The notes under the pieces were generated by a model. The model worked only from the letters and a program-made list of their open reading frames with translations. It made no database searches and was not told the origin of the DNA. From Patiria pectinifera (lineage: Eukaryota; Echinodermata; Asteroidea; Valvatida; Asterinidae): 64,000 nt of DNA. This document shows, one piece after another, positions 2,133-63,656 of this stretch (within the stretch, counting starts at the first letter, position 1; every line of letters starts with the position of its first letter). The translations under genes and the position numbers were made by a program. The stretch lies in the NCBI GenBank assembly GCA_029964075.1, contig CM057130.1, positions 5,704,001-5,768,000 on the forward strand, in the 5' to 3' direction.

Positions 2133-5100
2133 TTACCGTATTCGCGCTGTAAGTTGACGCCTCTGGTAAAACAGATATGCACACGCCGCCATCACCACCA
2201 GCAGAAGCACTCCGCCTAGTACTCCAATTGCCACCTGGTACCCAATGTTTTCACAACTTTCGGACTTGGCAGCATCACATTTGGGAGAGTGCTGTCCCAC
2301 CTGGTTGCTATCACCTATTGAAACAAATTAAAATGTTTACATGTTTACATGTTGCTACAACTGCCAAAGTACATTTTTTAAAAGTCTTTAGATTTCAGGT
2401 AATAAACGCTTTGTGTTTTTACCCCGACCAGATTTGACATGGAATTCCGGTCATATTTTGACCTGATATACTTTTCGGGGAAAAATGACGCTATTCTTGT
2501 TTGAAACGACACTTATTTGGATCATTTTGCGGGTCATTTTGACCAGACAAAGGTCCTTTTGACCCTGACAGTATCAGGTCCAATAATAATCACCCGGATT
2601 CTGGACCAAATTTTGACTTGAGACTTCAGTGCATAAAATGGTGTCTTTATACATGGCACATTAAAATTAGAATCTTGTTCGGTTCTGTTTATTAAACGTT
2701 ATGACAGGTAAACATTTATGACAGGTTGCTATCTTACATTACAAAACTCTAACCAAAGTTGCCATGCCTCGCTACCCCATCTGTGCATTATATCCGAAGA
2801 TACTTGCCTGCAGAACTGAGAGTTGTGCCTGCAGAACTGAGAGTTGTGCCTGGAGTGTCGACGATCTCTCCAGGGCCAGGGCAAGATGTATCGTCGACTG
2901 TATTATTTTATCCAAGAAACAAAAAAAAGCGAAGCTAATATAAAATATACACAAAGTCCTCTCGTTACAGTTTGCGTGAAAATCTTCCTGTTGAGGTTTT
3001 TTTCGGAATCAAAGCAAACTGAGAAAATGATGTCTGCCTAAATGAAGAATGAAATAATTATTTAATATGTTTTACAATCTCTTTATTAATTTTCTTGGTT
3101 GAAGAAGCAAATAAAATTGATTTAAACATAATGCCATTAGCATGAAAAACAAGTGTCATTAATGAAGTGCATGTATTTTACACCATCGCGTAGCATGTAA
3201 AAAAATCGTCCTGCAATTCCTAGAATGACAATCTCCAGGTCAGATTGTTTTCAAAAATATAGACTCTATTTACTGTGTAATTCTGATACATTGAGGAGTG
3301 TGTATTGAACAAAAAAAGCTTCATCCCCGCCTGAACTCCCATTCCTCATCATTGCTGATTCCCGTACGCAACTCTGAAAATAAACGGTTCGGGACCCCAC
3401 TTGTTAAGAACATTACTTTCTTACCGCGTACTTGCAGATACCGTGTCGTCTCGACCGGTTTGTAGTACCTACTAGCCCGGTAGGTGACGCGGTAAAGCCC
3501 CTGGTCGCCGCAGCCCGGGGCCGGGAAGCAAAGCACCGGGATCTGCCCCGAGCTCAGCCTGATGTAAGGCGCTTGGCGAGGGTTGGTGTTATCCCAATCC
3601 CCGATGTGCTTCAATGGCGTGCCGTGTCCGTTTTCGCGGATGACCTCGAAAGTACCATCGAAGTCACATTTGATTTCAAACGATACAGTCAACTCGCCCT
3701 GACCTGGAGTTATCGTGATGTCGTCCTCCGATAGGGAGAAAACTGCAAAAGTGATGAAATAAAAAGGAAAAAAAAATCCAAGAATTTTCCAAACTACATG
3801 ACATATACCCACATGTATCATATGACAATTTGTACAATTCGTCGTTAGTTTGTACTATAATAGTTTATTATTTGGTATACCTACTTTGACTGACTGTCGT
3901 TAAAGTTGAGCTTTGAAAAAAAAAATGTGAGAGGGTCAATTGCATACAATTGTTGCATCGGTTTGACCTTTTGCATTTTGTAATATGCCTAAGTGGAACT
4001 TCGTTGTGATAATCTCGTAAACTAATACATTTCTTCAAAATCGACATGACAACCGTTACTCTCTTCCCACCCAACCGTCCCTGATACAAAATTGCAGCAA
4101 TTGAGTAAATCACATTTCTATCTCAAATCAAAAAGTCAGGTTAATGGAAGAGGCATAAAAATGATCGTGTCGCAATTTATTTGATAGATAAAGATTCACA
4201 GGCTACGCATTATTGAGCATAATTTACCGCGTGGAAGCAGAGTAAAACCCGTATTTTGTTATTACACAAGCGATGCGTAATAATGTTTTGGTGTTTAAAT
4301 CAATAATTGTTTAAAAATTTACTCAATTATTTTACTTGTGATGACTTTACTCAACAAAAATTTACACTATGTTTTCAGAGTGTGTCACTTAACAGGTCCG
4401 ATTTACGATGGGCTTCTGATTGATTTGTGATGACTTGTGTGGACTTGTGATTACCGATGTTGACTTATGATGACTTGTGTTGACTTGTGTTGACTTTGAT
4501 GATTTGTGTTAACTTTGATGACATTTGATGTATTGTGATGACTTGTGATGACTTGTGTTGACTTGTGATGACTTGTGATGACTTGTGATGACTTGTGTTG
4601 ACTTGTGATGACTTGTGATGACTTGTGATGACTTGTGTTGACTTGTGTTGACTTTGATGATTTTTGTTGAATTGTGACGACTTGTGTTGACTTGTGATGA
4701 CTTGTGTTGACTTGTGATGACTTGTGATGACTTGTGATGACTTATGATGACTTGTGATGACTTGTGGTGACTTATGATGATTTGTGTTGACTTGTGATGA
4801 CTTGTGTTGACTTGTGATGACTTGTGATGACTTGTGATTAACTTGTGATGACTTGTGAAGACTTGTCATGACTTGTAATGACTTGTGTTGACTTGTGATG
4901 ACTTGTAATGACTTGTGATTGACTTGTTATGACTTGTGATGGACTTTTGATTGACTTGTGATTGACTTGTGATGACTTGTGATGACTTGTGATGACTTGT
5001 GATGACTTTTGTTGACTTGTGATGACTTGTGATGACTTGTGTTGACTTGTGATGACTTGTGATTACTTGTGATTGACTTGTGAGTGACTTGTAATGACTT

Positions 5101-6524
5101 GTGATTGACTTGTGATTGACTTGTGATGACTTGTGATGACTTGTGATGACTTATGATGCCTTATGATGACGCCTGTTGACTTGTTTTGACTTAAAGTTTA
5201 CTTGTGATGCCTTGTGACGACTTGTGATTACTAATGACGAACTGAATAGTGACTTTTTTGTGAATTGAATGCAGCTCTGCTGACCGGGGATGGTCACAAA
5301 CCTGTGTCGTTTCTGACCCAGACATTGGCTGTAGAGTCTCCAGGTGTCTCATCATGCACGCCTACCGGCACTCCACCCTTCACCACGTCACAGTCACATG
5401 ACCCAGAATCCTCACGTTCAATGAGGTGAAGCACCGTCAGCGTTGTCCCCAGGGCGCACTTCCGCGTTCGATTGTCACAACACTTGCTTTCGGCAATCGT
5501 GTATCGCTCATCATGTTGGTGCTCGATTAGCGACCCATCGAGTCGTCGGCAGCGCACCTGGAGGGTTTCGGCCGGGTCTGCGTTCTTGGCTTGCCATTTA
5601 AGTTGGTAAAAATCTCCCGGTGATGCACAGACCCCCTTGGGTGAGACGAGTATAGATGCTGCAGATGTCTCTATATTAATTGTAAAAAAAAATAAGTCGG
5701 CATAAAGTGGATAAATGTCTGGTGTACATAAAACTAGGAAAGTGAGTTCTGTGAAATACTTGGTTATAAGAACGGTATCAAAGCACCCCAACATAATGGA
5801 ATGTTGGGCACTGGGCCAGCTTTGATGTGCATTGAAAATGCGTCACTTGAAAAAAATGCTTTCCCCTTCGCAATGGTTTGGTCTTAACCATCGTGAGGAA
5901 ATTCCCCTTTTCTTGAATATGACAGCACACTAGGCGCAATGATTTTATTGATCCTATACAATTTACTTACACTCAACTAAGATATTTCATAATTTTTCAG
6001 ATTCATATTTGAATGTTTATAAAAGGTGTCTATTACCTTTAAAGGACTACATCATCATTGGCTTTTCATGCATTTTGTTCGTTTCCAACAACACCACTTA
6101 AAATACACCACTGAAGGAGATTCAAATCCTGTAAGTTGAATCTTCAGCTCAGTTGAATTACACTTTTTTCAATCAGTGAAAAAGCATGCACAACCTTTTG
6201 ATCAGTAAACACGATTTTATCAGCAGCACTCTTCCCCCCCCCCAAATCAGTCAAAATACTGATTGTTGGAAATCATACACACGTCATATGATTTCTTCTG
6301 AATGACAGCAAGCCAGAGAGCATATTTAACGGGGTGTTCGATCTTTAATCCAAGTATTTTGTTGATATGAAGTCGGTAGGTTACTTTTTGGGATATGTGC
6401 AAATGATCATATTTATACTGAACGCATGTCCTACAGTCTTACCTGTGACTGAGGGTCTGGTAAGGGACATCAGCAGCATCAGCGCAGCTAATACCAAGTA
6501 AGAATTCATCTGTGCAGCTTGCAT
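2133..6524 (-). CDS. IgA: two-Ig-domain type I membrane protein
   Basis: Five exons were assembled from splice sites, all introns phase 1: 6443-6524, 5302-5670, 3425-3742, 2808-2849 and 2133-2314, giving 330 residues. Exon 1 encodes a signal peptide (SYLVLAALMLLMSL); a second Met at 6509 is an alternative start. Exon 2 (residues 28-150) is a V-like Ig domain with GVCASPGD and DSGSCDC, but the usual B-strand Cys is Trp (YQLKW). Exon 3 (151-256) is a second Ig-like domain with IKCDFDG and GLYRVTY. Exon 4 is a Ser/Thr-rich stalk and exon 5 holds a transmembrane helix ending YLFYQRRQLTARIR. NRT and NDT are potential N-glycosylation sites. The role is probably cell-surface recognition or adhesion (inference; no ligand can be named). 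It is diverged from IgB and IgC but has the same plan. The stop TAA overlaps a GT donor-like site, so more tail exons are possible. Confidence 0.75.
2430..2640. repeat. Interspersed repeat in IgA last intron
   Basis: The text with TTTTGACCTGATA and GACCCTGACAGTATCAGGTC matches, in the same order and orientation, the element at 46241-46496. The copy here is diverged and its ends are unclear. It lies inside the last IgA intron and has no coding potential. Confidence 0.5.
2808..2849 (-). CDS. IgA stalk exon with internal 21-bp duplication and GC donor
   Basis: This 42-nt exon reads, after one base from the previous exon, GTTLSSAGTTLSSA, two exact copies of a seven-residue Ser/Thr-rich unit. The acceptor is CTCCAG and the donor is GCAAGT, a GC-AG intron. 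Phase in and out is 1, matching the neighbouring exons. The Ser/Thr content suggests an O-glycosylated stalk, which is inference. An alternative acceptor inside the duplication would drop one repeat without changing frame. Confidence 0.6.
4390..5250. repeat. TGACTTGTGA minisatellite in an IgA intron
   Basis: About 860 bp of tandem 10- to 11-bp units built on TGACTTGTGA, with GTTGACTTGT and GATTGACTTGT variants. It lies in the intron between IgA exons 2 and 3. It creates long but meaningless open frames, for example a Ser/His/Lys/Gln-rich frame on the minus strand, which is not a gene. Confidence 0.9.
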
Positions 6525-8825: not shown

Positions 8826-8829
8826 CCGA

Positions 8830-15539: not shown

Positions 15540-15815
15540 ATTTTTTTTCGCCTTCGCCACATTGCAGGGTGTAGCAAGGTCATTTTTATTGGGGGGGGAT
15601 ACAATTTCTTGAAAAGGGCATTTGCCCATCCATGCTGATATCACTTGGCCTCCGTAAAATTGAATAGGGGTTTTGGGGTTTGATGGGGTGTTGTTCAAAA
15701 CCGATGATTATGCACATTAACGGACAATGGTGCTTTTCAGGGAGATGCATGTGCGAAATTAAAAAATAGGCACCCATAACGGCACAAAAAGGGCACTTGT
15801 TAAAGGGCACTTGTT
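15540..15815. repeat. GTAGCAAGGTCATTTTTAT repeat
   Basis: The text GTAGCAAGGTCATTTTTAT followed by a poly-G tract recurs at 33729-33775. Related C/G-rich text recurs at about 34420-34610 and 37740-38120. It lies in the first intron of M1. Open frames across it are low-complexity shadows. Confidence 0.5.
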
Positions 15816-16264
15816 TATTGCCTGTTGACCGTTTTTACTTGCCCAAATTTACCTGTTACGCTGTGAACTTTCCTCGCTAATGCTTTCGTCTCTTCGCCCG
15901 TGCCACAACCAACGTCTATAATGACATCCTCGGGTCGAAAAGTAAGCTTGTCGAGGTTGCGCACTATGACTGCATGCTGATAGTATCTACCGTCACTCTG
16001 GTAATCTTTGCTCGCTGAAAAGTTCATACTGAAACTGAAAATATTGAAACCTTTCCAATTGAAAAAAAAGAAAAGAATTATGCGAGTTACAATAAACTCT
16101 GTGGAAGTTGTAATCCTTGACTGAACATCCTGAAACTGCGCAGAGTAAGCCTCGGCTTTGCTGGGACAAAACTTTATGGAACAGGGCCGCAGATTATTTT
16201 GTTCAGTGTATTTGGCTGTTTGTCTCTGAAAATTATGAAAGCTAAAAATGATTTAATAAGGGAA

Positions 16265-23879: not shown

Positions 23880-26800
23880 TTAGAGTGGCTTGGAAGCGTG
23901 TATGACCATCAGATCGATCGGAAAGAAGACATATCCTGGTCGAGACTCATCCGGGTATCGAGACAACGCCCACTGCCAGAAATCCTCAAGATACGCCTCC
24001 TGATCTGACTCCGGTATTTGCGATGATGTTGCCCAAATTGTCTTCAAAAATACTAGGAGCAAAAAACAGAGAAAATGTTATTTTGGTTTCGGATTAATAA
24101 AAGAGTTATTGTTGTTAGACGAGAACCCTCGTATTACATTTAATATTTAATATACATGTAATATGACGTTATGTACTATTATGTACTAGAGCAAAGGGCT
24201 TCCTATTGAAGTCGGATCGGGAAAAACAAAATGATTTCACACAGTTAGGCCTACAAAGTAAATTAACACCCATTCGATATCCAGTCATTACGCTAAGAAT
24301 GACAACGATCTCTTGAAGACGAAAAGAGCATACTGATCAGAACGTCGAGTTTTACAACCAACCGGTTCTTTTCAGAACCAGCCATCTTCCCAAAAGAGAT
24401 GTCTACATGGTGTTACCTTCATAGGTCAATGTTCAAATGAGAAGGGGAAAACAGTTTGTAAGGATCTAGGAGGGTAATTAATGTGTTCACAGTGAACTTT
24501 AACTGACATTGTAGGCCTATAGGCTTATAATGATCATTGAAATCAAAAGACATAAACCCATTGTGTATTGCAAAAACCATTCTGAACAAAGGAACCACCA
24601 ACTCTCCTAATGTCTACTATGAAGACCGGGGTTGAACCTAAGTGGAACGTGGGACGGAGGTTGAGGAATTTCCTCCTAAATAGGAATTACTTTTTGTTCG
24701 CAGCTCTGTTTCTGGCGGGAAGTATTGTGTCTCAGACCACGTGTTGATCCAACCACAACTCTCAAGCAGCTCTTCAGTCTCTGACACGGACTGGTTCCAG
24801 AAGTTGAATGGACTCTTGTAGTCCTGGAAAAATATGTCAAATTGTCAAAAACGGAACTTGGTTTTAAATACGATTTTCATTTACATTTTGCGGTCATTTC
24901 TATTTCTGGGATACGATTCTGTACATAGTATTAGTAGGAACTGCAGTTATTCAAATAAATGGATTGCAATTGCAAATGTCCGAGCAGTTGGAACATGTAG
25001 TGCCTGGCGTATAGCCAGTCTGGCTTTTTGCCTCAGGGATGGTCCCAGCCCTGAAGAGGGCATGCTGAGCGTCATGTTCTATTATGGCTTCGCTCGTACC
25101 CCCCTCCGCCCCCTGCCCTGCAAACAGGACGCTGGGATACTCTGATGAGCTTCACAGAATCTTGTGAAGGAAGTGGCCTCTGACCTATGCATAAAGCATC
25201 TGGCTGCAGCTGTTCAAGACCGCAGTTAGACAATGTGCACAAATGCTATCCGAAAACTTCCCATGAAATTGCGCGCATTCCATACCGGATGTGATTTCTG
25301 TTTCATTGCGGACCATGTGGACACAATTTTGAGCGTCGCATAATGCAATCCGACCGTTCGTGATTCGAAACGGAGCCTGAGCGAGTGACGGGAATTGTAA
25401 ATTAACAACACAGATAAGTTTTACAGAATTTCCTACATTATTACGATTTTCAACGACAAAAAAACCTCTCTTAACTGGAGTAAAAGAGTAATGAATCAGT
25501 CTTAACGGCCGATTCAAACCTTGCAGAGTCATGACCTTGTTGACGTGCAGGTCACTGGTCACGCAAAATCCAACCAATCAGAGCGTGAATTCATCAGAGT
25601 ATCCCAGCGTCCTGTTTGCAGGGCCGGGGGGGGGGGGGGAACGAGCGAATATTATGGCAACCTTGTCCCCAGAGCTTACTTTATTTCCAACCTCGTTTCC
25701 AATAGTAAGCTCTGGATAGGAAACTTTCTTCCTGTAGGCCTATCCTGATTCGATACCGCAATTTGCTAGTAATGGATATATGTCGTGTAGTTGGTGTTTT
25801 CACGATCACTGTAATTATAACGTCCACGCCATCTCAATAATGCTCATTTTCTTTCCAGTTTGCTCATACAGAAATATGAAATGTGATACTGCATATTGGC
25901 AGGGGCAATTTGATGCTGTTTTTACCTCAGACACCGCATACAAAACAAACGCTAATGTAACGTACGTGCATGCGCCAGACTACATGTATTCCTCATTTGC
26001 ATACGTGTTCAAAAATCTTGCACATGCAAATGATCCAATACCAGGGTGAAAGAGCAGGTAGTGGTGGGCACGTACTGCTCGACACCCTGGGGACGAGGTT
26101 GCTATTATGGTTACCAGGCCTACGTCAGGGGAATGTCATGTCAGTGAAATGGCTCACCTGCATGTATTTACCCCACTTGGCGTGACTGCTTAGAAAATCA
26201 TGAGCCTCCTTTACAAACGTTGTTGGTTTACCCGCGATTAGCAGCACCTCCCCTCCCGGCTTGAGACAAGCCAAGATGCTCCTGAGTGCCTTAGCGTGGT
26301 CCGGGCACCAGTGAAGAACGAAGAAGCTGACAGCCTTGTCGAATCTTCCAAGATAGTCTGGGTTGTCTCCAATGGTCCGTGCGTCTCCCCAATTGTAAGT
26401 TATATTGGGTGCCGAGTTGTTGGCATGAGCGACGGCTAGCATCTCCTCTGAAGTGTCAATGCCTGTGTTAAAAATGTTCAATAGTAGATGACAGATCTTC
26501 AATGAATTTTAAAAAGCATTCACACATTGGAATTTTGGAGGGGGTCATCATTTGGAATGATATTTCAACTGTGATATCTGGGAATTAATTTTTGAAAAAA
26601 AGAGAAATGACACTGTGGGAACCAGATATGGATGCTCGTTTCAGATTATAACATGTTCTAGATTGGAAAACTGAAAGATGCTCTCCTGACGAATTTTCAA
26701 TTATGTATGTTTTGTTTTAACGAAAAACTATTTTGGGTATCTGCAACCCTGTGAAATGGAATTTCATTTTACGCACAAAATAATGAACCCGGCCTGTTTA

Positions 26801-27891
26801 TATATTGTCTGACAGCCAATAATTCGATTTTGGGATTTTTTTGTCCGCTGCCTCATTCAAAAGTGAACTTAGGAAAATAATAATTGAAAAAATATCAAAT
26901 CTGTCGTCGAAGTGAAACTCCAAAATAGCACAGGAAATCATTTTGTGAGCAGTCCACCTAATGTCACCCTATATAATACGCGCGATGTTGGAAGTATTTG
27001 CTGCCACATGTAATTTGAGTCCCCCCCAACTCAACTCCACAAACGAGACCATGTTTCCATTTATACCAGTCATATTTTATAGGGGGGGGGGACACAGTCT
27101 AACCGTTAGCTATAGTTCCCATTTAAAGCCATTGGTGATCACCTCCGGCGTACGAAGCATTATTTTCAATTTTGGAAACGATGTTCACAGCGGTGCGTAT
27201 TGCATTTGAACACATGCCTATCAAAAAACCCTAACCATAACCAGAAGGCAAAATCGCCAGTGTCTCCACGAAGGTAACTTTCTAGACTTGGTGCCAAGTC
27301 GGTAATTGTTTTGTGTACAGTAATACTGGATCCATGCACGCAAAATATGTATCGCTGCATGCAATGCGGTAGTCAGGTTCCCAGACCAAATGATGCTGAC
27401 TATTGATGTTCAATTACCGACTTGGCGAATACGGTTTCAATTTTGTATACAACATAATGGGAGTATTTGGAATCGCTAGCGAATTCCCGGTGAGCACTCT
27501 GATTGGTTCGGATACCATAATGTATCAAGTTCTAGGCCGCCACGGAGGATAATTCGAATATTTTCAAGGGTTCGCACTTTGTGTTGTGAAACATTACAAA
27601 AATGTACCATAATCCATACCATGATGTGCTGAATTGACCTCGGTCGTGTTTATTATGTGGCCGGGACACAATACGTAAAAGTGATTGATTAATTAATTGG
27701 TTTATTTGCTTTATACCTGTTACGCTGTTAACTTTCCTCGCTAATGCTTTCGTCTCTTCGCCCGTACCACAACCAACATCAATAACGTCATCCTCGGGTC
27801 GAAAAGTAAGCTTGTCGAGGTTGCGCATTATGATTGAATGTTGAAAGAATCTACCGTCTCCTTCGTAATTTTTGGCCGCTGAAAAATTCAT
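23880..27891 (-). CDS. M2: JHAMT-like SAM-dependent methyltransferase
   Basis: Four exons join with canonical GT-AG sites: 27717-27891, 26158-26462, 24691-24823 and 23880-24052 (phases 1, 0, 1), giving 261 residues, normal for the family. Exon 1 carries motif I, VIDVGCGTGEE. Exon 2 has GIDTSEEMLAVA (post-I acidic region), the GRFDKAVSFFVLHW segment typical of juvenile-hormone-acid methyltransferase relatives, and LKPGGEVLLIAG (motif III). Exons 3 and 4 form the C-terminal cap, ending MVIHASKPL. The family transfers a methyl group from SAM to a small carboxylic acid; insect members act on juvenile hormone acid or farnesoic acid. The substrate here is unknown, and a soluble cytosolic enzyme is expected. 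It is the only copy of the three with no defect seen. The chosen Met has no in-frame alternative that keeps the domain. Confidence 0.85.
25089..25649. mobile_element. Inverted-repeat element in M2 intron 2
   Basis: GCAAACAGGACGCTGGGATA plus CTCTGATGA at about 25120-25148 is repeated in inverse at about 25593-25621, with further matching GCTCG and C/G-run flanks outward. The interior holds a 130-residue minus-strand open frame with no recognised domain; I do not call it a gene. No target duplication was established. Confidence 0.55.
25915..26110. repeat. Block shared with methyltransferase upstream regions
   Basis: The series CACCGCATACA, AAATGATCCAATACC, AGAGCAGGTAGT and CGACACC also occurs upstream of M2 exon 1 (28290-28500) and M3 exon 1 (38745-38945). 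Here it lies inside M2 intron 2. Confidence 0.6.
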
Positions 27892-28289
27892 ACTGAATCT
27901 GAAAAATAATGAAAATCTTTAACAGTTGAAAATGTGAAAATGTTCGGTTTATGTATGCTCAGTGGAAGGTGTTGCTACCTCTAGCCTCGTTTCAAAAGCC
28001 TCTGGATTGATACGTGGTTCCTGTAGCCTTGCAAACGATATTTGCTACACAAGTGTTTTATTTGAAGTATTCGGTCCCTTTCTGAACACACCCTGAGGCA
28101 GTAGTACTTTAGTGCTGTTGTATTTGGTGCTTATGGTGGTGGTGGTTCACTGTAATTACACAAATTACAATACTTAACTTTAGTATTTAGTTTAATAATA
28201 TTCAGTTTGAGTCTCCATATTGGATATCTTCATATCTCCATGTTTTGTTTTTTATCTCACGCCGTATCAAATTGAATCCGTTGTACTAC

Positions 28290-35024: not shown

Positions 35025-38000
35025 TTAGAGCGGCTTTGAAGCGTGTGTGACCAACAGCTGTATCGGAAAGAAGACATATCCGGGTCGAGTCTCATCCGGG
35101 TATCGAGACAACGCCCACTGCCAGAGATCCTCCAAATACGCCTCCTGGTCCGACTCCGGTATTTGCGTTGATGCTGCCCAAACTGTCTTCAAAAATACTA
35201 CGAAGGGAAAACAGAGAAAGGGTTATTTTATTTTCAGAGTAGGAAGAGGGTTAACGTTGTTAGAAAAACATATCGTACTATTTAGCCAGAAATGCAGGTG
35301 AGAAACTAAAAGTTTAGACACATTTCATATCAGGCATGCCGAGGCTCCTAGTGAGAAGCATTGTATGACACGGGGGGGGGGGCTTTTTTTAAATCCTCAC
35401 TGAAGAGAGAATATTAGGCCTTCGGTTCCAGTGTTTATTTGAAATTCGTCTATGATTATGCCGATATAGAAGCCAAAGATGCCAAAGCAGGGATCGTATC
35501 AATATGATTTATTAGCAGACCGTTGTATTAGAGGATAGATCATTCAATGATTATCGTCATAAAAACGCGTTTGGTATCCACCAACCCGTCCCCAGGCCCA
35601 AGGCCAAGCATGGCTTAATTTCAAGCATTATTAGCTGTTATCTCACTTAAGCAATGGATCGTTGGCCAAAAACCTTGGATATCACGAGGCGTGGAGCAGA
35701 CTGGTACAAGTATACCACTGCAAGTCCATGCAGTTTATGTGACGTTTGGGGTACCAGACTAAAGTAATTTCAGTTGAAGTCTGATCGGAAAACACAATGA
35801 TTCCATCTGCGGTCATTACGCTAAAATGACAATATTCAAAATCAAAAAATAGAAAATAGTTTGTAAGGAGGGTAATATGTTCACAGTGAACTTAAACTGA
35901 TTATGCCTATAGGCTTATAATGAATATTGAAATCAAAAGATCTAAATGAAATCAAAAGATCTAAATTGTGTATTGCAAAAACCAATCAGAACATATGAAC
36001 ATGCAGCTACCCTCTTAATGTCTACTATGAAGACCGGGGTTGAAACTAAGTGGAACGTGAGAACGAGGTTAAAGATTCAATACGCATTACTTTTCGTTCG
36101 CAGCTCTGTTTCTGGCAAGAAGAATTGTATCTCACTCCTTGGGTTGGTCCAACCACAACTCTCAAACAGCTGTTCCATCTCAGCAACTGACTGGTTCCAG
36201 AAGTAGTACGGACTATTGTAGGCATATAAAAAAAAAAGAAGTGTTGAATACGCAATTTAATTCGACTTGTTTATAAAAAGACGGTTTTCATCTTTGCGGT
36301 CATTTCTAATTCCGGGATACGGTTCTGTTAATGGAAGGAACTGCAGTTATCAAAATGTGTCGATTATAATCGCACATAATGTCCTGCACTTGTAATATGT
36401 CATGCCTAGCTAAATTATCTAGCTTGGTGCTTTTGCCTTCAGTATGCTCCCGAACAAGGGCGATGCTAAGCGTCATACCCTTTTTTGGCTATACCTGACA
36501 TACCATAAGAGGCGTCAGGGGATGGTCAAGACAGGGAACCAGACTAATACGAGTGGGCCGTGTGACTCACCTGCATGTATTCACCCCACTTGGCGTGACT
36601 GCTTAGAAAAGCAAGTGCCTCCTTTGCAAACGTTGTTGGTTTACTCACGACGAGCAGCACCTCCCCTCCCGGCTTGAGACAAGCCAAGATGCTCCTGAGT
36701 GCCTTAGCGTGGTCCGGAAACCAGTGAAGAACGAAGAAGCTGACAGCCTTGTCGAATCTTCCAAGATAGTCCGGGTTGTCTCCAATGGTCCGTGCGTCTC
36801 CCCAATTGTAAGTTATATTGGGTGCCGAGTTGTTGGCATGAGCGACGGCTAGCATCTCATCTGAAGTGTCAATGCCTGTGTTATAAAACATTCATTTGGT
36901 AGATGATGATAGATCGTCAACAAATAATGTTATCAAGGATTTTCATAATTGGATTTCTGGCGTTTTGAAAAAAGAAACGACAGTGCGTCGGAAACCAGAT
37001 ATTCCGTGGATTATATATTTTCTGGAAAACTTTTTCTTCTCCTAGCGAATTTTCAATGTGAATGTTTTGTTTACACGAACAACTATACCGATTTTGGGCG
37101 TTTGCAAATCTCTGAAAAAGGATTCTTTTTTTAACACACAAAATGAACCCACCCTGTGAGAGCCGAGTATCGTACAAGCAATAATTAGATTTTTTGGGTT
37201 TTTTTTCGTTCGATGCCTCATTCAAAAGTGAATATTTCTAGAAAATTAGCAATTTGAAAAAAAAAAAATCATCTGTTTTCGAAGTAAAACTCAAAAATAG
37301 CACGGGGAACGTATCAATTTCTGAGCACTCCACCTAATGTCATCTTAATACGCGCTACCTTGGAAGTATTTTTCCGCCACATGCAATTTATGAGCCCCCT
37401 CCCCAACTCAGCTCCACAAATGAGACCATGGCTCTACTGAGGCCAGTCATATTTTGTGGTGGGGGGGGGGGGGGGAAGCCGGGGGGCATGTAGTCAAACC
37501 AGTAGCTAGTTCCCATTTAAAGCCAATGATTGGATCACCTCTGCGCGTACGTGCGCAGCATTAGCTTTTATTATTTTGAAAATGGTGTTCACACATAAAA
37601 GCGCCCACTCGAACATAAATGTGCCCCCTCGAGATGAAAGCAAAACTGACTCTAAAATTTCAGACAATTTTAATCAGTAACCATTTCCCAGAATGGTATA
37701 GAGAGTTCGGATATGAACGAGGAATATGATCCCCAAAACCCTTACAAAATGCGTAGTTTGCATAATGGCCGGTTTTGAAGAGCGCCAAATTTTGGAAGAT
37801 GGCACTAGCCCCCCCCCCCCCAACCCCACCCCCTTACACACCCCCACACCCCCACCCACCGCTCTCCCCCATTTGATTTTACGGAGGCAAAGTGTCCGGT
37901 GAAAAAAATCTTCTGACATGTCAGCACGGATGTGCCCCCGCCCCCCACCTTCCCCCAACCCCCAAAAAAGCTGGATACGCTGCTGCACAGACGGAAGATG

Positions 38001-38396
38001 CCTTTTACTGAGCAAGTGCCCCTTTTTGGTAATGCCCCCAGTTTGAAAACCGTTCAGCCGCCAACGGATCGCTTGGCTGATTCGAATTTGGTTTATACCC
38101 CCAACTTTCACTTATGAGGTAACACACTGAGTATGCAGTGTTTATACGTCGGTAAACTGAATAGAAAAACATTGATTTACATCACCCCAGTGACGCAACT
38201 TCCATGAATCGCTCAATATACCTGTTACGCTGTTAACTTTCCTCGCTAATGCTTTCGTCTCTTCGCCCGTACCACAACCAACGTCTATAATGACATCCTC
38301 GGGTCGAAAAGTAAGCTTGTCGAGGTTGCGCACTATGACTGCATGCTGATAGTATCTACCGTCTCCCTTGTAATCTTTGATCGCTGAAAAATTCAT
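35025..38396 (-). CDS. M3: JHAMT-like methyltransferase, exon 3 acceptor lost
   Basis: Exons at 38222-38396, 36571-36875, 36091-36223 and 35025-35197 have the same lengths and phases as M2 and no stop or frameshift, giving 261 residues if joined like M2. Motifs are IIDVGCGTGEE, GIDTSDEMLAVA, FVLHWFPD and LKPGGEVLLV; the C terminus is THASKPL. The defect is at exon 3: M2 has TTTCCAG before the exon, whereas M3 has TTTATAT. The nearest AG, eight bases inside, would shift the frame to a stop within eleven codons. Either the gene is recently broken, uses a noncanonical site, or an assembly error is present. Intact coding sequence suggests the loss is recent. Exons 1 and 2 are closer to M2 than to M1, consistent with tandem duplication. 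Confidence 0.7.
36091..36223 (-). CDS. M3 exon 3 lacking AG acceptor
   Basis: The exon reads AYNSPYYFWNQSVAEMEQLF and onward, aligned residue for residue with M2. The donor GTAATG is present, and a polypyrimidine tract precedes the exon, but the two bases at the boundary (36225-36224) read AT on the minus strand. Confidence 0.7.
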
Positions 38397-38744
38397 GCTG
38401 AAAAAAAAATCTTTTAACAGTTGAACATTTGAAGAAAAAAAAAATTTCGGTTTTATGTACACACTCAGTGGAAGGGGTTGCCACCTCTAGCCAACCTAGT
38501 CCCCAGGGTCTTCATAATTTTCAACCTCGTTTCAAATAAAAGCCTCTAGATTGAAAACGTGGTTCCTGTACGCTGATTAGCTACCGTAATAGCAAATAAT
38601 GGGTTTATATAGTGCACTTGGTAACTGTATTTCCAGCATACGATTTAAAGTTCAATATCACGTCAAATCCTCCTCAAATCCTCCCTTCTCCAGAAAACCA
38701 GAAAAATCATGTTTTTCGATCACACGCGGTGACGAATTGATTCC

Positions 38745-46051: not shown

Positions 46052-46240
46052 ATGGCGAATTTGTTTTCTTGTTTCGGCCCGTGTCCAGTTTTGATTGATT
46101 CCTCATTATTTTCACTGCCTATGGGCTTGGCCGTTTGGGATCACCTGTATATTAAGCGGTTCCCTGGTTCCACTCTCTCCATCTTCTGCATTGCTTGTAC
46201 TGTCAAAAACAAGAATCAATCTGAGTGTTATAATTCAGAC

Positions 46241-47462: not shown

Positions 47463-50400
47463 TCACCTGGAGGATCGACGGTTCTTGCGCCGGTGACAGA
47501 AATGCACAATAAGGGGGACGGCTATCCCCCAGGCGACAAGGAGTCCTATGACAATGTAAGCGCCGTTATCCGGTTGATTCTCTGCATCCAGCATTCGGTT
47601 TGGGGCGACTACGGTTCCTAGTGCTTCATTGGTTTTGCAACTGGTTTCAGCCTGGCCAGTTGCTGTACCCAAGTGATAAAGAAACTCAGTTCAAAAAGTG
47701 AAGGAGTGTTGTGGTTTGTAATCAAGATCCTCCCCAACAAATTCACCTTATTTTAGTTTCTATTAAATATTATGTTGAACAGAAGGAAGTTGTTATGGCT
47801 TTGTTTGGGGGCGCAAGGCATATACGCGAAAGACTGCCAATATAAAACTTGGGCTGGATAAAGCAATGTACAGTATACGTACGGTATTTCCGCAAGTTGG
47901 GATACAAAAGTACGCTATTCCGAAAGTGGCAGGTAGTAATGCCTTGTCAGACGTAATGGTGAAAAGTACGACCGCGTGCTTGCCCATTATTGTGTGTGTG
48001 TCCACGAGTTGCTCACCACCTGAGTTAATCACGAGCAGGGGCGGTCATCGCCCGTGAAGAGGACGAGGCAAAGACTCGCTTTCAAATGCAACTTAAGCTA
48101 TGTTAAATTTGTATATTAAGCCTCTCTCTGCTTGAATAACCAACTTTTAATGAGAACATTTAACGAACATGTCTAAACCTTTTGTCTGGCATATTCGGCA
48201 AAAATCATTAAACCACACACATCTCTTCCCATCATAATGAGGAAATACCAGTCGAAACAATGGAAACATAATATGACAGTTGAAACAAAAGTGCTGATTG
48301 CCATACTTCCCCCAGATAATCCTTATGACGTTTACAAAGGAAGTGGTTTGAACCGCTGGACGTTCTGGGCTCGAGTGCTGTGACAACCCGTTCCTTTCCC
48401 CGAAAAAACACCCTCAACAGAGCTTTCTCAGGATACGCCATCTTGATAATCAAACTGAGGCAAACAAACATGGCGGCGTAAATAGTGTGTGCGGTGAATG
48501 AGTAACTCTCGCAAAGTAGTTACAGCCACCATTTTTGTTAGCGTTATTTGCCTCGCTTTTATTTTCAAGGTGGCGCACCCCGAGAAAGGTCTATTGGCCA
48601 TGTAAAAACTTACTCTTGAGGGTTGGAGTCACTGGAACCGCGTCTTCTGGGCAGCAACTTTCACACGAAGCTGTATATGAAAATTGACCAAAGCTACCAA
48701 TTAATTATTTTTTTTGCGTGTTTGTGTGCTGATTTGTTCGTGACACTGTGTGTAAAGAGACACAGATACGTTATCTTCCCTACAAAATCAAAATGAAAAC
48801 GTACACTCTTTAAAATTAAGTGAGTACACGTACACAGGGTGAGTAATCCTTTTGGATTAGTTCTTGTCTCCCACAAAAAACGGGAAAGTTTAATACCAGA
48901 GTTTTTTTCAGCCAACAATCGGTCTGGGTATTTATCACGTTCAGTAAAATTTTCACTGATATTCAGCCATGCATGAATTGGATACAGGCCTTTCTCTGTG
49001 ACTACACGAAAACACTGCCAACACAATGTTCAGAATAGGCCTCTTGCTATCGACACAATGGCAACAATGGGCCTCTGGACAATGGAGGAAAAATAAGTAA
49101 CAACAGAATAGGATATGAATGAAATGGAATTATATTTACTGAACTTGGATCTGAATTACAGGTAAGGTTCACACTTTCACTGTCCTGCTGCTCGACCTTC
49201 CATGTGTCTGCCATTCAAAGCAATGCATAGTTGAGGCGAAGAACACGGATGGTCTGCAGAGCTAGTGAACGTATGCCCAGACCGATTGTTGACTGAAAAT
49301 AACCCTGGTAACTTTTTCCCGTTTTTGTGGGAGACTAATCCAAAGTGACACTTTATTTACTCACCCTGTAAACCAATATGCATGTACATGTACATGTACA
49401 TACATCAGAAGTCGTGCATCGTATAGCATACCTATTTGATTTACATTTTAATCTTACCATTTATGTCAATGGACTTTGACGTTGACACAGGTTCCAAGCC
49501 CCTGCTTGCCATTACAGTGAAATTGTACTTGGCCGCGTCCGTGCACTTGAAGTTTGGAATGACGAGCGCGCCGTCTATCTTGTCGACATACGCATGCTGA
49601 TAACCTTCGTGGCTGTAACGGTAGGGAAGCTCTTCGACCATTCCATCCCTGCTGGTTCGGGTGACTCGGACTGGTGCTTTGTGGTCGCATTTTCGGTCCG
49701 GCTGGACAGTGACAAACTCCCCCAGGTTTGCCGCCATATTGGTGGGCAATTCAAACTCTAGATTATAGAGAGTAAATTAAATTGTAAAAGTAATATCTAA
49801 AATGTTCTCAAAGCTGGTCTGATGAAAGAGCTCTGTTTTTGATAGAAAACTTGTTTTCCTTTCCCCAACATTTTGCTGAAATTCCCTTTGAGATACATGG
49901 GGATATAATGTACGCACCTTTTTAGTACTGCTACGCCCCAACTATCATGTTCCCAACTGTAATTGGACAGTCCCAACAACGGTCACAACCACAGTTGGGG
50001 CAGTCAAATTTGGTCCCAACTGTATAGTCCCAATGGGACATGCAGTCCCAACAATACATGTATTATAGCTGGGGCGATCCTAACTGTATAGTTGGGATCG
50101 TCCCAACTACATAGTTGGGGTGTAACAACGCCACAGAGGTTCAGTGATCCCTTTAACATATTGGAAAGGGAGGCTCTAAAAATTCGGCCACTTGAACGAG
50201 TTTATAAATAGATTAAGTAACCTACAAGCCGATTTTATGAAGATCATAGAGTGACAACATCACCTAAAATGACTTCATAAGTTGCTCAATAACTTGTTGC
50301 GGAAGTCGCGTACTATATCCGAAATGTTGCGCTATGGGAAATGTTGCGCAATGCGAAATGTTGCGCAATGCGAAATGTTGCGCAATGCGAAATGTTGCGC

Positions 50401-52035
50401 AATGCGAAATGTTGCGCAATGCGAAATGCTGCGCAATGCGAAATGCTGCGCAATGCGAAATGCTGCGCAATGCGAAATGCTGCGCAATGCGAAATGCTGC
50501 GCAATGTGAAATGTTGCGCAATGTGAAATGTTGTCTCAGATTTTGCACCTTCCGCGTCCATTTGTATATCATGTAATCGGACAATATTTCACATGCTGCC
50601 GACGCGATTCTACCGAGATATGTTATTTGCAGGTCGGCGTCCCACTCGCGCAAACGTTTGCGTAAATGGAACGCAGCCCAGGTGCGTCTCAGGTTGCTCT
50701 CACATGGCGATTCAATGCACAAAGAGAATAGCGGGTGCCTATACGTGAAATGCCATGGTTCTCTTACCTGATTGTCGTTGGACAAACACGGTGGCACTCG
50801 ATGTGTACGTTCTGCCATTTTCTACTGCCCGACACCAGTAGACGCCCTCATCGCTCACGGATGCAGCATGCACTGTCAGCCTCACCTTCAGATCCCACTT
50901 GTAGTCCGAGTCGATCTGTCGACACATTGGAGTGAAGGCGAGAATCTGGGTGTGACTCGTGTCGTCGATCGGCGTGGATTCCTTGCCGAAAGACACCTGT
51001 GTCTCTTTCCTGGATGCCGAGCGCAGTGTACAGTACAACTCAAGTGCATCCCCGGGAGCTACACAGACACCTGTCGTCTCCATGTAGATTTGCGTTGCGG
51101 CAGACCCTAGAAAACAAGTGCGAGTGCACAATAAGCTCTGGCCGTGTTGCAAGAAGTCTTGCATGAAATCGATCACAATGATCCCTGCCAGAGCTTAAAA
51201 ATCCGACGCCGAAAAATGCGACGCCGATGGCACATATGGAACACCATACTTTAAGTCAATTTTCGGGGACAGACAGACAGACAGACCATCCGACCGACCG
51301 ACCAATCACCAAGTGACATGCAGAAGCTCCTGTCAGAGCTTAAAAGGGGGGTTCCATTTTGTTTTCAGATGAGACATCTTTTACGCGTGGTTTTGCAATT
51401 TGTTTTGTTTTGAAGGTTTCATTTCAATCTGTACAGTGTACTGGATTCTAGAGATTCTCATTCTTCTACCATGTGCTACGGTCCCAGAGGGCCGGCCTAG
51501 TATCTTCTTTTAAACTTTCTCACTGACTGAATGAGTCAGTGACAGATAGACTGACTGTCGATTGTGACTCAGACTGGATACAGACTGTTGACAAGTGCTA
51601 TCGTATGGGATTACCCGGTAACGCCATTAAATTGGCCAAAGACGGACCAGTGTGTAGACCAGTTGCATGAAAAAGACTTCCAGTAAATATCCATTTTGAA
51701 TCGAGAATTTCTTGTGATCTGGGACTAGCTTGACTAATTTTTTTCCCATTATTATATTGTCTTGCATTGAGAATTTCATTCTGGAATAATAAAAGTTAGG
51801 ACTCTTCCACACAGAACGGAGATAAATTATTTTCAATATAATACACCGCATTTTTAGTGTGCTAAGACTATAGGCCTACTCGGTTAATCTAAACAACACG
51901 ATTGTTAAACAATTTCTTTAAAATCTTCATCAAGATGAAGATTTTGGGAAGTTCTTTTAGTTTTTTCATACCAAGGGCGGTCTCCAGTAGGAGCACGCAG
52001 AGGAGCAGAGCCATCAAGAAGGAAGAGGCATCCAT
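47463..52035 (-). CDS. IgB: two-Ig-domain type I membrane protein
   Basis: Exons 51972-52035, 50768-51106, 49458-49757, 48614-48670 and 47463-47662, all phase 1, give 319 residues. Exon 1 is a signal peptide (SSFLMALLLCVLLLETAL). Exon 2 (22-134) is a V-like Ig domain with GVCVAPGD, LYCTL and DEGVYWCRAV. Exon 3 (135-234) is a second Ig-like domain with DRKCDHK and FKCTDAAKYNFTV, where the usual F-strand Cys is missing. Exon 4 is a Cys-rich stalk (SCESCCPEDA). Exon 5 has ENQPDNGAY, a transmembrane helix and tail HRRKNRRSSR. An AG just upstream of exon 5 in IgC is GG here, so the TACAG six bases later must serve as acceptor, keeping frame. A spliced 5' UTR is suggested by an AG acceptor 17 bases before the start codon. 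The stop TGA overlaps a CAG/GTGAAA donor. Probably a surface receptor (inference). Confidence 0.8.
48835..49368. mobile_element. Palindromic CAGGGTGAG element in IgB intron
   Basis: The ends CAGGGTGAGTAA are inverse copies, with inner pairs such as GTCTCCCACAAAAA against TTTTTGTGGGAGAC and CAACAATCGGTCTGGG. It fills the intron between IgB exons 3 and 4. The matching IgC intron is only 300 bp and lacks it, so insertion followed the gene duplication. Confidence 0.7.
49930..50125. repeat. CCCAACT/AGTTGGG inverted-repeat cluster in IgB intron
   Basis: At least nine CCCAACT or AGTTGGG words occur in both orientations over 200 bp, with GCCCCAACTA near the start and TAGTTGGGGT near the end. It could be a MITE with internal repeats. 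No matching cluster is seen in IgC. Confidence 0.6.
50333..50535. repeat. 17-bp minisatellite in IgB intron
   Basis: About twelve units of AAATGTTGCGCAATGCG, switching to a CTGCGC variant midway. It lies in the intron between exons 2 and 3. IgC has one diverged unit at the matching place (GAAATGTTGCGCAACTGCG near 62134). Both strands have long frames through it (Ile/Ser/His/Cys/Ala/Phe or Asn/Ala/Lys/Cys repeats) that are artefacts of a 17-bp period. Confidence 0.9.
51183..51347. mobile_element. Short retroposon-like repeat with direct flanks
   Basis: CCCTGCCAGAGCTTAAAA on the left and CTCCTGTCAGAGCTTAAAAG on the right are direct repeats around a body with (GACA)n and (GACC)n and CACCAAGTGACATGCAGAAG. 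A related body is at about 34740-34840 (CACCAAGTGACATGTAGAAA). Direct flanking repeats suggest a SINE or LINE tail. It sits in intron 1 of IgB. Confidence 0.5.
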
Positions 52036-54780: not shown

Positions 54781-54796
54781 TGACCGGATTCGTATA

Positions 54797-56085: not shown

Positions 56086-56089
56086 ACAT

Positions 56090-59090: not shown

Positions 59091-59219
59091 CATTCATCTG
59101 TCCATTTCCAAGAGGAAATGTTCTAATCATCGGTGTTAGTGGTGTCAGCTGGGTTTGGGTCAACTCGTAGTCGAACCGTTTCTCCAGTGGCGTCAGCGGG
59201 CGCTCTCGTATTGTACGCT
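59091..59219 (-). CDS. Candidate alternative cytoplasmic-tail exon of IgC
   Basis: A 129-nt segment bounded by TTCTCGACAG and the donor GTAATT. If the IgC transmembrane exon is spliced at the GT overlapping its stop (phase 2), this exon is read as R-AYNTRAPADATGETVRLRV and onward for 31 codons to a TAG at 59123-59125. A different, fully open frame reads ERTIRERPLTPLEKRFDYEL but needs phase 1. Which frame is used, if any, cannot be decided from sequence. Confidence 0.35.
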
Positions 59220-59496
59220 CTGTCGAGAATACAATATAAAAACAGCACAAATAAAAATTAAAAATGGTTACATGTATTTAAAGAATGTAATCTAAGAACC
59301 CCCCGCCACATGTGGTATGTGTGATTTTAAGCTCAAGCAAACGAGGAGGGGTGGGATGGGGTGTGGAAACTTCAATACGGCTCGACGATTCTGTTTTGTT
59401 ATTCATGTCAGTTACGACACCATTTTGTTATAGCCATTGGCCCATTTCAAAGACATATTATTTGAATTTATTACAAAGTGACCCACAATGAAGGTT

Positions 59497-62400
59497 TTAC
59501 CTCGTCAAATCACGAATTTTGCGGCGATAGTAGAGTATCACCACGACGAAGCAGGCGATCGCAAAAACGACAATGACCACTATGACGACAATGTAGGCGG
59601 TGTTATCCGGTTGATTCTCTGCACCATCTAGCTTTTTGATGTCTCCCGGTATTGCAGTGGTTCCATCCTGGGTATTCGCTGTACCTACGAGACAAAAAAA
59701 CCCATTATTTCAAAGTGAAGGAGTGTTTGGGTTGTAATGAACGATCCTCCCAAACAAATCCACCTTGAGTTTCTATTAAATATTCTGTTGAATTCTGAGT
59801 GGACCCCTACAGCGACTGATGAAATATCTAGCTCTATACATGTTGGCGTTTCACAAGTTGTTATGTTTTTCTTCGGAGTGCAAGACATTGATGAAATTGA
59901 CTGCCAATATAGGGCCTTATTATAGAGCAATGGTGTGGTATTTCCGCAAGTAGGAATGTGAAAGTACACTATTCCAGAAGTGGCATGTTTAAACATAATC
60001 ATCTTGTCATACGTAATGGCAAAGTACGACATCGCTTGCGCATGTGCATGTGTGTGTGTTCACGTACGAGTTGCTCACCGTACCACCTCGAGTTGATCGT
60101 CCGCAAAGCCGGTCATCGCCCATGAAGAGGGCGAGGCAAAGACTCGCTTTCGTTTTCCAATGAAACTTAACTTATGCTACATATCCTCTCTTTGCTTGAA
60201 TAAACAACTTTCTATGAGAAAATTGTCGAATTTGTCTAATTCTTGTGCCCTGCATATTCGCCAAAAATCATTAATCTACACTCGTTTCTTTTATTTACAT
60301 TGTATAAGGAAATGCCAGTCGAAAAAAAACCTGTTTTTTTTTCTCGACATGTTTAAACATGACAGTATAAACGAAAGTGCTGACTGTCATATGTGTTTCC
60401 CCCGATAACAAACTCCTTGGTGTTTATATAAGAAGTGCTTTAAACCGCAGACGTTTCGGGATCGAGTGCCGTGACAAACCCGAAAAATACCCCCGAGTCA
60501 ATTGGCCAAACTTACTCTTGTGGGTTGGAGTCACGGTAGCGTCTTCTGGGCAGCAACCTTCGCACGAAGCTGTATATGAAATTGACCAAAGATATAAATA
60601 AATAATTTTGTTTGCATGTTTTTCAGGTAATTTTTGTGTGACACTGTGTGTGCAGAGATATGATACACATACATAATGGTACCATTTGCATGGATTAGTT
60701 TGTCAGGTTCCCTATATACAAGGTGGAAATATGTATATTTTATAACAGAATATAATTTTATGCAATTATAATTAGCGTATATGGCTCCATGCAATTGCTC
60801 ATGCATCTCAGCATACCTGTACATTGTTTCATACAATTATGGCTTACATTTATTTCATTTTACTCTCACCTTTTATGTCAATAAACCTTGACGTGAACAC
60901 AGGTTCAAAGCCCCTGCCAGCCATAACAGTGACGGAATAGTTCCCCTCGTCCATGCACTGAAAGTTAGGTATGACGAGCGCGCCTTCTAGCCTGTCGACG
61001 TACGCAGACTGACTTTCCTCGTGGCCGAACCGGTAGGGCAGCTTTTCGATCACTCGACCCCTGCCCGTTCTGGTGACTTGGACCGGTTCAAGTTTGTCGC
61101 ATTTTCGGTCCAACTTTACCTTGACTTTCTCCCCCAGCTTTACCGCCATCTCACTGTTGGGCAATTCGAACTCTATAGATAATAGAGAATAAAAATTAAA
61201 GTTATCATTTTTAAAGGCAGGCATATATTTTCCAAAGGCAACCAACCGAACTCAGTATTATCAAAAAAGATTATGGATTGAAAATCGTATTGGCACCGTG
61301 AAAACACCGTGGAATTATTCCGTGTTGCTTGCGTTTAGTAGAAAATAGGAAATGTAGGTGATTTCCAACAATTGGTTAACTGGCTGATTTCTAGAAATAA
61401 AAGAGAACTTCTGCCAACAACTTCTGTAATGTAGCCAAGGGCGGATCCGGGGGGGGGGAGGGTCAAAGGGGGCCATGCCCCCCCCCCAAAAAAAACAAAC
61501 CAATTTTTTTTAATTTTTTTTTATGTGACATCGTAATAAAGGCAGGCAATGAGTACACCACCATCTTTTCCTCAAAAAAAAACCATTGGTTAAAGTGGTC
61601 AGAAATTGCCTCAGATCGCACCACAGAGCATCTAGAATCCCTTAAGCGGGCCCCGAACCCCACGCCGTAATTTTTTTGACCCACTTTTTTGGGGGACCAA
61701 ATGTTTGCCCCCCCCCCCCAAATTGTGTTCTGGATCCGCCCTTGTGTGTAGCTGCGCAATGAATGCACAACGCTTTGACGAAGAGAAATCATAGCTTTTA
61801 CGGCGGTTGTTTACTCCGGTCGTAAAATTGTTCCTCCATCTGCCATTGTAAAAAAAAGGTTTGTGTGAATTTCTTCGGAATCGAGCTGCAAAATTCTAAC
61901 ACGGGTAAAATTGCATTTTATTACCTTCAAAAATAAAGTCGTCGATATAAAAAAACCTTGATAATTTGGGCAATTATGACGGAATCTACGACTGTCACAA
62001 TGAGTCATTAAAAATTGCTCAATTTCCCGTCAGTACGCCGATAACTACGCCACCTTCAATGACTTCATAAGTTACGCAATAATTTGTTGCGAAATTCGTG
62101 GACTTGTGTCATATCCCAAAGGTTTGCAATGTGAAATGTTGCGCAACTGCGTAATTAACGAATACTTTCATCAATTCTACTTGGTTCTGCAAGTGCAGGA
62201 TGGGTTCGCAACGGTTCCCTAAGCGGAATGGAGCCCCATCTCAGGTAACATGGCAATTCCATTCAGAGACGAATAGCAAATACCTCTAGACCTCTGCATG
62301 CTGCCACCGTTTCAGTCATGTTCCCTGTATCCAATAACAGTACTGAATGATGTATTTTGTGCAAAAAGGAACCAGACTGTTTAACTTCCAGCCTCGCTTT

Positions 62401-63656
62401 GGTTACGTTGATTTGAATGGGGGAAAAATCAAAGTAGGCCGCAACATGATAATGGTCTATTACCTATACGTGATCTCTCAAGTTTGTTTATTGTGTGAAT
62501 CGAGGATTTTCTAATGTTCCTCTTCCCTTTTCCTTTATTTATACTCTAACTTTTTTGCAACAGCTCTCATTGGTTTTGTAAACATTTTCTAATCGAGGTC
62601 GTCCTCGATTTGGTTCCTGTCCTAAATTCACCGATGATGTTGCATGTGTGTGTCCTCGATTTACACCATAAACCAACGCACAATGCAATGTTCTTACCTG
62701 ATTGGTATTGTACAAACACTTCGGCACTATCGTTGAAGTGTTCTCCATCTTCTACCGCTTTACACCAGTAGACGCCCTTATCGCTCGCAGATGCTGGATC
62801 TACCGTCAGACTGGCCGTCAGATCCCATTTGCACTCCGAGCCTCTCAGTAGACACCGTGGAGGAAAGGTTATTACCTGGGTGTGGTTGGTGTCGATTGGC
62901 ATCGATCCCTTGTAGAACGACAGCCGTGTGTCGCTGTTGGATGCCGATTGCAGAGTACAGTACAAGACAATAGGGTGTCCAAGAGGTACACAAACGCCCT
63001 CTGGGATTAAGCTTATCTGCGTCGCAACTGTTCCTATAAAAACAGTAACAGAAGAGCAGGCACACCATAGATAAATTTTCGGCTGGATATCCGTAAATTG
63101 TATATTTTCCTTATTCCCAAATAATAAAATTTCAATCCAACACCCACAGACAAAGAAATAGGGACCCATGGACCTCGCCAGACCCAGTAGTTGTAACTAC
63201 GTCCGGGTGGCGAAATTATTTTTCCCCAAACAACATCGTATATAATTATGCTTGTTGAGCGCCCTCTACGATACTTTTATTATACGTACGCGGGTACAAG
63301 TATAATGCCATTAATTACGGCTTGCTGTCGAGCTCTTCGATAGTTCAGCTGAATAATGACATGGTTTTCAAATCGGAGGGTGTGGGTTCGCAACCACATT
63401 TCCCGATTTTTTTCTTTTCTAATATGCGGTTTTGGCGGATTCCCCCAACCCTTTATATATTATTTTCTCATGATATTAGGGAAGTAAACTCCAAAACCTC
63501 ATACTAGTGATAGCGTTCACCCCATTCGGTTATGTCGTTGGGGAAAAAAAAAATCGCGTCCGGGTATAAAAGAAGGATTTTCGTCTCACCAATGACTGTC
63601 TTCTGGAGGAGGACGGCAAGCAGGAGGGCCATCAGTGGGAGTTTACAGCTGTCCAT
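59497..63656 (-). CDS. IgC: two-Ig-domain type I membrane protein
   Basis: Exons 63590-63656, 62698-63033, 60870-61172, 60516-60569 and 59497-59684, all phase 1 with GT-AG sites, give 315 residues. The signal peptide is LPLMALLLAVLLQKTVI. Exon 2 (23-134) is V-like: GVCVPLGH, LYCTLQSAS, an extra pair in RCLLRGSEC, and DKGVYWCKAV. Exon 3 (135-235) has DRKCDKLEPV and FQCMDEGNYSVTV, lacking the F-strand Cys. The stalk is SCEGCCPEDATVTPTHK. Residues 285-304 (IVVIVVIVVFAIACFVVVIL) span the membrane, followed by YYRRKIRDLTR. NHT, NDS and NYS are potential glycosylation sites. A TATAG acceptor 25 bases before the Met indicates a spliced 5' UTR. It aligns with IgB exon by exon, including AENQPDN before the membrane. 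A surface recognition role is inference. The stop TAA overlaps a GAG/GTAAAA donor-like site. Confidence 0.8.
61436..61744. mobile_element. CAAGGGCGGATCC-family MITE in IgC intron
   Basis: The inverted ends CAAGGGCGGATCC are intact. The flanks AATGTAGC and TGTGTAGC agree at six of eight positions, an eroded 8-bp duplication. It lies in the intron between IgC exons 2 and 3; no copy is in the matching IgB intron. Confidence 0.75.
63325..63420 (+). repeat. tRNA-like fragment
   Basis: TAGTTCAGCTGAATAATGAC, TTTTCAAATCGG and GTGGGTTCGCAACC follow the order of a D arm, anticodon arm and T arm, but the acceptor and anticodon stems do not pair properly. Probably a tRNA-derived repeat. It lies in the first coding intron of IgC. 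Confidence 0.3.

Follow-up and report, generated by a model that had tools for sequence, protein, structure and literature searches.

Does the minus strand of a 64-kb stretch of the sea star Patiria pectinifera encode a lineage-specific family of two-domain immunoglobulin (Ig) receptors, and what might such proteins do? The stretch, hereafter the window, comprises bases 5,704,001-5,768,000 of contig C2 in a genome of 613.5 Mb and 1,020 contigs, and coordinates within it are window positions. A preliminary description made from the sequence alone had proposed three related type I receptor genes there, IgA, IgB and IgC. Our analysis points to a small Patiria-restricted Ig-superfamily family of short-tailed type I surface receptors serving recognition or adhesion, a reading that we hold at about even confidence.

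Reading of the window sequence, together with matches to annotated proteins of P. miniata, identified IgA, IgB and IgC as genuine minus-strand genes with 6 coding exons each, of 67-369-318-90-178-67 bases in IgA, 64-339-300-57-196-88 in IgB and 67-336-303-54-184-97 in IgC (Table 1). The signal peptide, V-like domain, second Ig-like domain and small stalk and transmembrane exons described earlier were found in all three and are matched by the P. miniata proteins. However, the five-exon plan had overlooked one tail exon per gene. Read-through past exon 5 runs into a stop within two codons in every case, whereas the P. miniata proteins that match the other exons run on into the tail exon. The intron phases are thus 1,1,1,1,2 and not all 1, the fifth intron being phase 2, and the predicted proteins have 362 (IgA), 347 (IgB) and 346 (IgC) residues in place of the 315 to 330 first given. 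Splice sites are of the usual form with the exception of a GC donor (gcaagt) after the IgA stalk exon; the product of this exon is present in the P. miniata protein LOC119740605 (P0005).

The family extends beyond these three genes. Searching the genome with IgC (E value up to 0.1) returned 13 matches. These were exons of IgB and IgC themselves, those of a further close copy, IgD (locus L023), and two V-domain matches on contig C20 (30% identity). IgD lies on the plus strand at C2:5.325-5.331 Mb, about 0.38 Mb away. The search with IgA (E up to 1) gave 10 matches, including IgA itself, domain 2 of IgC (E 0.155) and of IgD (E 0.366), and a fifth gene, IgE (locus L040; C2:8.050-8.054 Mb, about 2.3 Mb away), which is 53% identical to IgA in domain 2 and 44% in domain 1. 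As only IgC and IgA served as queries, five genes is a lower bound. All five keep the six-exon plan with phases 1,1,1,1,2. Phase-1 borders with one domain per exon are common among Ig-superfamily receptors, so this plan is not distinctive in itself. Tandem duplication, as first suggested, fits IgB and IgC but not IgA, IgD and IgE, which are scattered along the same contig; likewise the CCPED stalk motif holds for IgB and IgC (CCQED in IgD) but is missing from IgA and IgE. A DNA pattern for the GVC motif at the start of domain 1 was uninformative (4 matches against 2.46 expected).

Four of the genes have clear counterparts in P. miniata. IgA, IgB, IgC and IgD correspond to LOC119740605, LOC119741159, LOC119741160 X4 and LOC119741817, with 330/358, 311/347, 299/333 and 263/347 identical residues, respectively (76-92%), and the matches span the same exons, tail exon included. 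In a tree of ten proteins (IgA-E and five from P. miniata), IgB and LOC119741159 (support 99), IgC and LOC119741160 X4 (99) and IgD and LOC119741817 (96) formed pairs, and IgA with LOC119740605 was separated from the rest (99); the branching order among the IgB, IgC and IgD pairs was poorly supported (45). The fifth P. miniata protein, LOC119741160 X3 (P0002), is a further paralogue that joins the IgC pair (85). It has no counterpart among the matches in the present genome, so copy number seems to differ between Patiria genomes. LOC119741160 X4 (P0001) and X3 are annotated as isoforms of one gene and are about 69% identical; as they differ over their whole length, they look like the products of two merged tandem genes or of duplicated exon cassettes.

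The family falls into two groups, an A-type (IgA and IgE) and a B-type (IgB, IgC and IgD), which contribute three and seven of the ten proteins, respectively. When a profile of the IgA pair was compared with that of the IgB-type set, the two were linked over 285 columns (probability 98.2%, E 4e-14). As a control, local alignment scores were compared with those against 8 genuine Ig windows taken from this genome (10 loci scanned). Domain 2 scored 54-91 between the groups, above the control maxima of 28 (IgA query), 31 (IgE) and 39 (IgC). For domain 1, scores exceeded the control maximum with the IgA query only (46, 55 and 65 against 39); what joins the two groups is thus domain 2, together with the exon plan and the invariant cysteines described below. 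Among the six A-type/B-type pairs, shuffled sequences reached the observed domain-1 score in 0-6 of 1000 trials for four, and in 182/1000 and 296/1000 for IgE with IgC and IgD. This control is insufficient for domain 1, since real Ig windows score equally high with the IgE and IgC queries. At the sequence level, then, the two groups are united mainly by domain 2.

The family is apparently restricted to Patiria within the reach of our searches. We searched about 5.8 billion database proteins (E up to 10) with a method that requires shared 5-residue words, so that relatives below roughly 40% identity, by our estimate, could escape it. Two single-sequence searches returned 4 of 3,948 and 1 of 6,805 candidates, and a profile search, with a profile built without IgE, returned 5 of the best 7,997; within that word-based reach these are five proteins, all from P. 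miniata, which supports the earlier proposal of a lineage-specific family. In Pfam, IgB and IgC rise above the V-set cut-off and IgD above the I-set cut-off, so that 3 of the 5 genes match a curated Ig family, whereas no Ig-family match was obtained for IgA at E up to 1 or for IgE at E up to 0.01. Membership in a known curated family was rejected, as IgB-D match only generic Ig families. Sequence matches in the PDB were weak, with the polymeric Ig receptor pIgR (E 5e-4), VEGFR and junctional adhesion molecule 1 (JAM; E 0.016), and a best match for IgA at E 0.43; as an identity for the family they were rejected, since they look like generic Ig motifs. The titles or abstract openings of the best-ranked open-access papers contained no such sea-star family, and the four P. 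miniata LOC numbers, whose proteins are annotated as uncharacterized, are named in no paper of the open-access literature searched.

Of all the traits of the family, the displaced cysteines hold the most interest. AlphaFold2 models were built from four- and five-sequence alignments for P0001, the IgC orthologue, and P0005, the IgA orthologue. Both domains of P0001 and domain 2 of P0005 match Ig folds, as expected of the Ig superfamily, and domain 1 of P0005 was poorly predicted. Five cysteines are invariant in all ten proteins. Domain 1 contributes that of the GVC or GIC motif and that of strand F, domain 2 a further two and the stalk one. Domain 1 of the B-type carries both the B- and F-strand cysteines (7/7). 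The A-type has Trp at the B-strand cysteine site and a cysteine in the strand-C stretch (3/3), as if disulfide and core Trp had exchanged places, although the pairing is ambiguous because a further cysteine stands two residues before that of strand F (3/3). In CD4 domain 2, also an Ig domain, the disulfide runs between strands C and F, and the A-type arrangement is alike, by description, in its Trp at the B-strand site and its strand-C cysteine, if the pairing is as supposed.

Domain 2 is predicted from the models to be an Ig fold without the usual cysteine pair. The alignment of the ten proteins shows no cysteine at either expected site, which are occupied by L, F or P (P in IgB) and by V, F or I. 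The canonical B-F core disulfide is not strictly required of Ig-superfamily members. In both models the two domain-2 cysteines lie outside the predicted strands, one in the B-C stretch and the other in a three-residue turn before strand F. These places are at opposite ends of the standard Ig fold, so the two are probably not bonded together. Linking the upper one to the GVC cysteine of domain 1 and the lower one to the stalk cysteine would use up the four remaining invariant cysteines.

Divergence was compared between paralogues and between species. Pairwise ratios of nonsynonymous to synonymous substitution (dN/dS), taken exon by exon among IgB, IgC and IgD, were below 1 in 17 of 18 comparisons; being averages they are blunt, and a few selected sites would go unseen. 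Positive selection was not seen, the sole value above 1 (1.23, the IgC-IgD stalk exon) resting on 17 codons. P. miniata was compared at the protein level. For the fast divergence typical of recognition receptors that had been proposed, the picture is mixed. Conservation is lower in domain 1 than in domain 2 for each of the three paralogue pairs (51-55% against 61-67%) and, among the four orthologue pairs, for IgA (113/122 against 102/105) and IgD (79/115 against 77/100), but not for IgB (104/112 against 87/99) or IgC (104/111 against 94/100), and dN/dS is low. With the domain-1 excess in only half of the orthologue pairs and ratios this low, neither positive selection nor allorecognition is demonstrated.

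The predicted 21-residue membrane segment contains no charged residue in any of the ten proteins, and their cytoplasmic tails are 30-42 residues long. Patterns for the immunoreceptor tyrosine-based inhibitory motif (ITIM), the switch motif (ITSM) and paired YxxL/I matched 0/10 proteins; tail tyrosines occur as AYNTR in IgC and LOC119741160 X4 and as NYTEM in X3. With a short tail devoid of a tyrosine signalling motif, any signal would have to be relayed by a partner, unless the protein serves as a ligand or an adhesion molecule.

The same genome also encodes membrane proteins with a V domain, each in a single long open frame, such as L001 (C12:8526524), L002 (C12:3912362), L004 (C12:8642395) and L007 (C1:9226744). 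Among eight loci analysed by script, of which L008 was not properly read, ITIM-like tail motifs were found in L001, L002 and L007, and L004 has a paired YxxL; these loci are a possible set of inhibitory and activating receptors in the sea star. Among the matches listed, V-set matches in frames over 300 residues cluster on C12, C1, C6, C15, C17 and C354, and many more, mostly in short frames (about 100-220 residues), lie on C20 (10.4-12.6 and 22.0-23.3 Mb), C21 and C3, perhaps as clusters of exon-split V-domain genes. Of the 978 candidates of this V-set scan, 150 were scored, so the counts are lower bounds.

Table 1. Coding exons of IgA, IgB and IgC (window positions)
Feature	Position	Strand	Basis
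IgA exon 1, signal peptide	6443..6509	-	sequence; matches P0005
IgA exon 2, domain 1 (V-like, Trp at B-strand Cys site)	5302..5670	-	sequence, alignment; no Pfam Ig match
IgA exon 3, domain 2 (Ig fold, displaced cysteines)	3425..3742	-	sequence; fold modelled on orthologue's domain
IgA exon 4, stalk, GC donor (gcaagt)	2808..2897	-	sequence; present in P. miniata P0005
IgA exon 5, transmembrane	2137..2314	-	sequence, membrane prediction
IgA exon 6, cytoplasmic tail and stop	1428..1494	-	sequence; matches P0005 tail
IgB exon 1, signal peptide	51972..52035	-	sequence
IgB exon 2, domain 1 (V-set)	50768..51106	-	Pfam V-set 27.3 bits, cut-off 26
IgB exon 3, domain 2 (DRKC...C)	49458..49757	-	sequence, alignment
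IgB exon 4, CCPED stalk	48614..48670	-	sequence
IgB exon 5, transmembrane	47467..47662	-	sequence, membrane prediction
IgB exon 6, cytoplasmic tail and stop	46112..46199	-	sequence; matches P. miniata P0003 tail
IgC exon 1, signal peptide	63590..63656	-	sequence
IgC exon 2, domain 1 (V-set)	62698..63033	-	Pfam V-set 27.7 bits, cut-off 26
IgC exon 3, domain 2 (DRKC...C)	60870..61172	-	sequence, alignment
IgC exon 4, CCPED stalk	60516..60569	-	sequence
IgC exon 5, transmembrane	59501..59684	-	sequence, membrane prediction
IgC exon 6, cytoplasmic tail and stop	59123..59219	-	sequence; P. miniata protein match

Elsewhere in the window, the IgA intron that separates exons 2 and 3 holds a long tandem array of CATCACAAGT-like units (about 4430-5250). 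Between IgA and IgB, methyltransferase-like open reading frames are repeated on the minus strand, with similar first stretches at 15815-16252, 27532-27918 and 38142-38486 and two similar second stretches at 26125-26508 and 36544-36891; a stretch joined from two frames matched Methyltransf_11 (E 2.3e-21). An Rfam scan of the window at gathering thresholds gave zero matches.

How would such receptors work? In the reading that we prefer, the V-type domain 1 would likely be the ligand-binding head and domain 2 a spacer Ig fold lacking the usual core disulfide, with the short stalk and one transmembrane helix anchoring the receptor. It would most likely act by binding a partner protein carried by another cell or surface, and a signal, if any, would pass via a partner chain, given the short tail without a tyrosine signalling motif. 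The displaced cysteines may tie domain 2 both to domain 1 and to the stalk, yielding a stiff rod. Several results weigh against this picture. The AlphaFold2 models are weak (mean pLDDT, the predicted local distance difference test score, 58 and 53). A further domain-1 cysteine in 9 of the 10 proteins (not IgE) could offer the GVC cysteine an alternative partner, and domain 1 of the A-type carries two more cysteines in all three proteins, so other pairings are possible. Domain-1 scores between the groups did not exceed the control maximum with the IgE query (28, 30 and 42 against 50) or the IgC query (46 and 30 against 64).

The low dN/dS values, the orthologue pairs of IgB and IgC, in which domain 1 does not exceed domain 2 in variability, and the presence of junctional adhesion molecule 1 among the weak PDB matches, with other Ig proteins, would also suit ordinary non-immune adhesion molecules of epithelia, nerves or development, two-Ig proteins of the JAM or nectin kind diverging under relaxed constraint. 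The apparent restriction to one genus and the P. miniata copy P0002 without a counterpart are unusual for conserved adhesion genes, and we consider this alternative rather unlikely. The proteins might instead be tail-less recognition subunits pairing with separate co-receptors that bear ITIM- or ITAM-like (immunoreceptor tyrosine-based activation motif) tails, by analogy with the proposal for fester and FcoR in Botryllus, where, in the part of a review available to us, fester lacks signalling domains and is paired with FcoRs that bear motifs. The ITIM-like V-domain proteins of this genome could supply such partners; those examined, however, sit on other contigs, and the membrane segment offers no charged residue for adaptor pairing, which makes the arrangement improbable. 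Adult coelomocytes of P. pectinifera show allorecognition, for which the authors suppose histocompatibility genes, none being named for the species in the available part of the paper (PMC9763293). This makes the family worth testing, yet it is no evidence for that role. That the genes are allorecognition or other self/non-self determinants of these cells would accord with the use of Ig-superfamily type I receptors to this end in Hydractinia and Botryllus, as far as the accessible text describes, and with domain 1 as the more divergent domain in all paralogue pairs; the few genes found, the lack of an ITIM or ITAM-type motif and the absence of dN/dS above 1 outside a 17-codon exon render it very improbable. 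A more specific version, to which we give scarcely any credence, would have genus-restricted coelomocyte self/non-self receptors, each an Ig rod held by disulfides between domains 1 and 2 and between domain 2 and the stalk, with output via distinct Ig receptors that carry ITIMs and are encoded at other loci of the genome.

Known invertebrate systems resemble the family in part. From the portions of the literature available, the Hydractinia Alr receptors are likewise lineage-specific Ig-superfamily membrane proteins. Their domains are of the V-set and I-set types and they form a cluster within a single genomic region, but they number 41 members against at least five here. The Botryllus review places ITIM/ITAM-type motifs on candidate Alr-locus genes; by description only, this differs from the 0/10 in Patiria. 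The fester/FcoR system, as described in the accessible text, has one receptor kind without a signalling domain, as here, whereas its FcoRs differ in combining a sushi domain with long tails able to carry motifs. No sushi domain was matched at E up to 1 (IgA-C) or 0.01 (IgD and IgE), nor was the chitin-binding domain of amphioxus VCBPs matched in domain scans of these genes.

These genes thus form a genuine, uncharacterised and apparently genus-restricted family within a very well known superfamily, with an exon plan that is not special. If they are coelomocyte receptors, they would provide concrete candidates in a genus where allorecognition has been demonstrated and, in the part of the report available, no gene has been named (PMC9763293). 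The ten proteins, which keep two displaced cysteines in domain 2 without the usual pair, offer a clean test of how the Ig disulfide can be re-wired.

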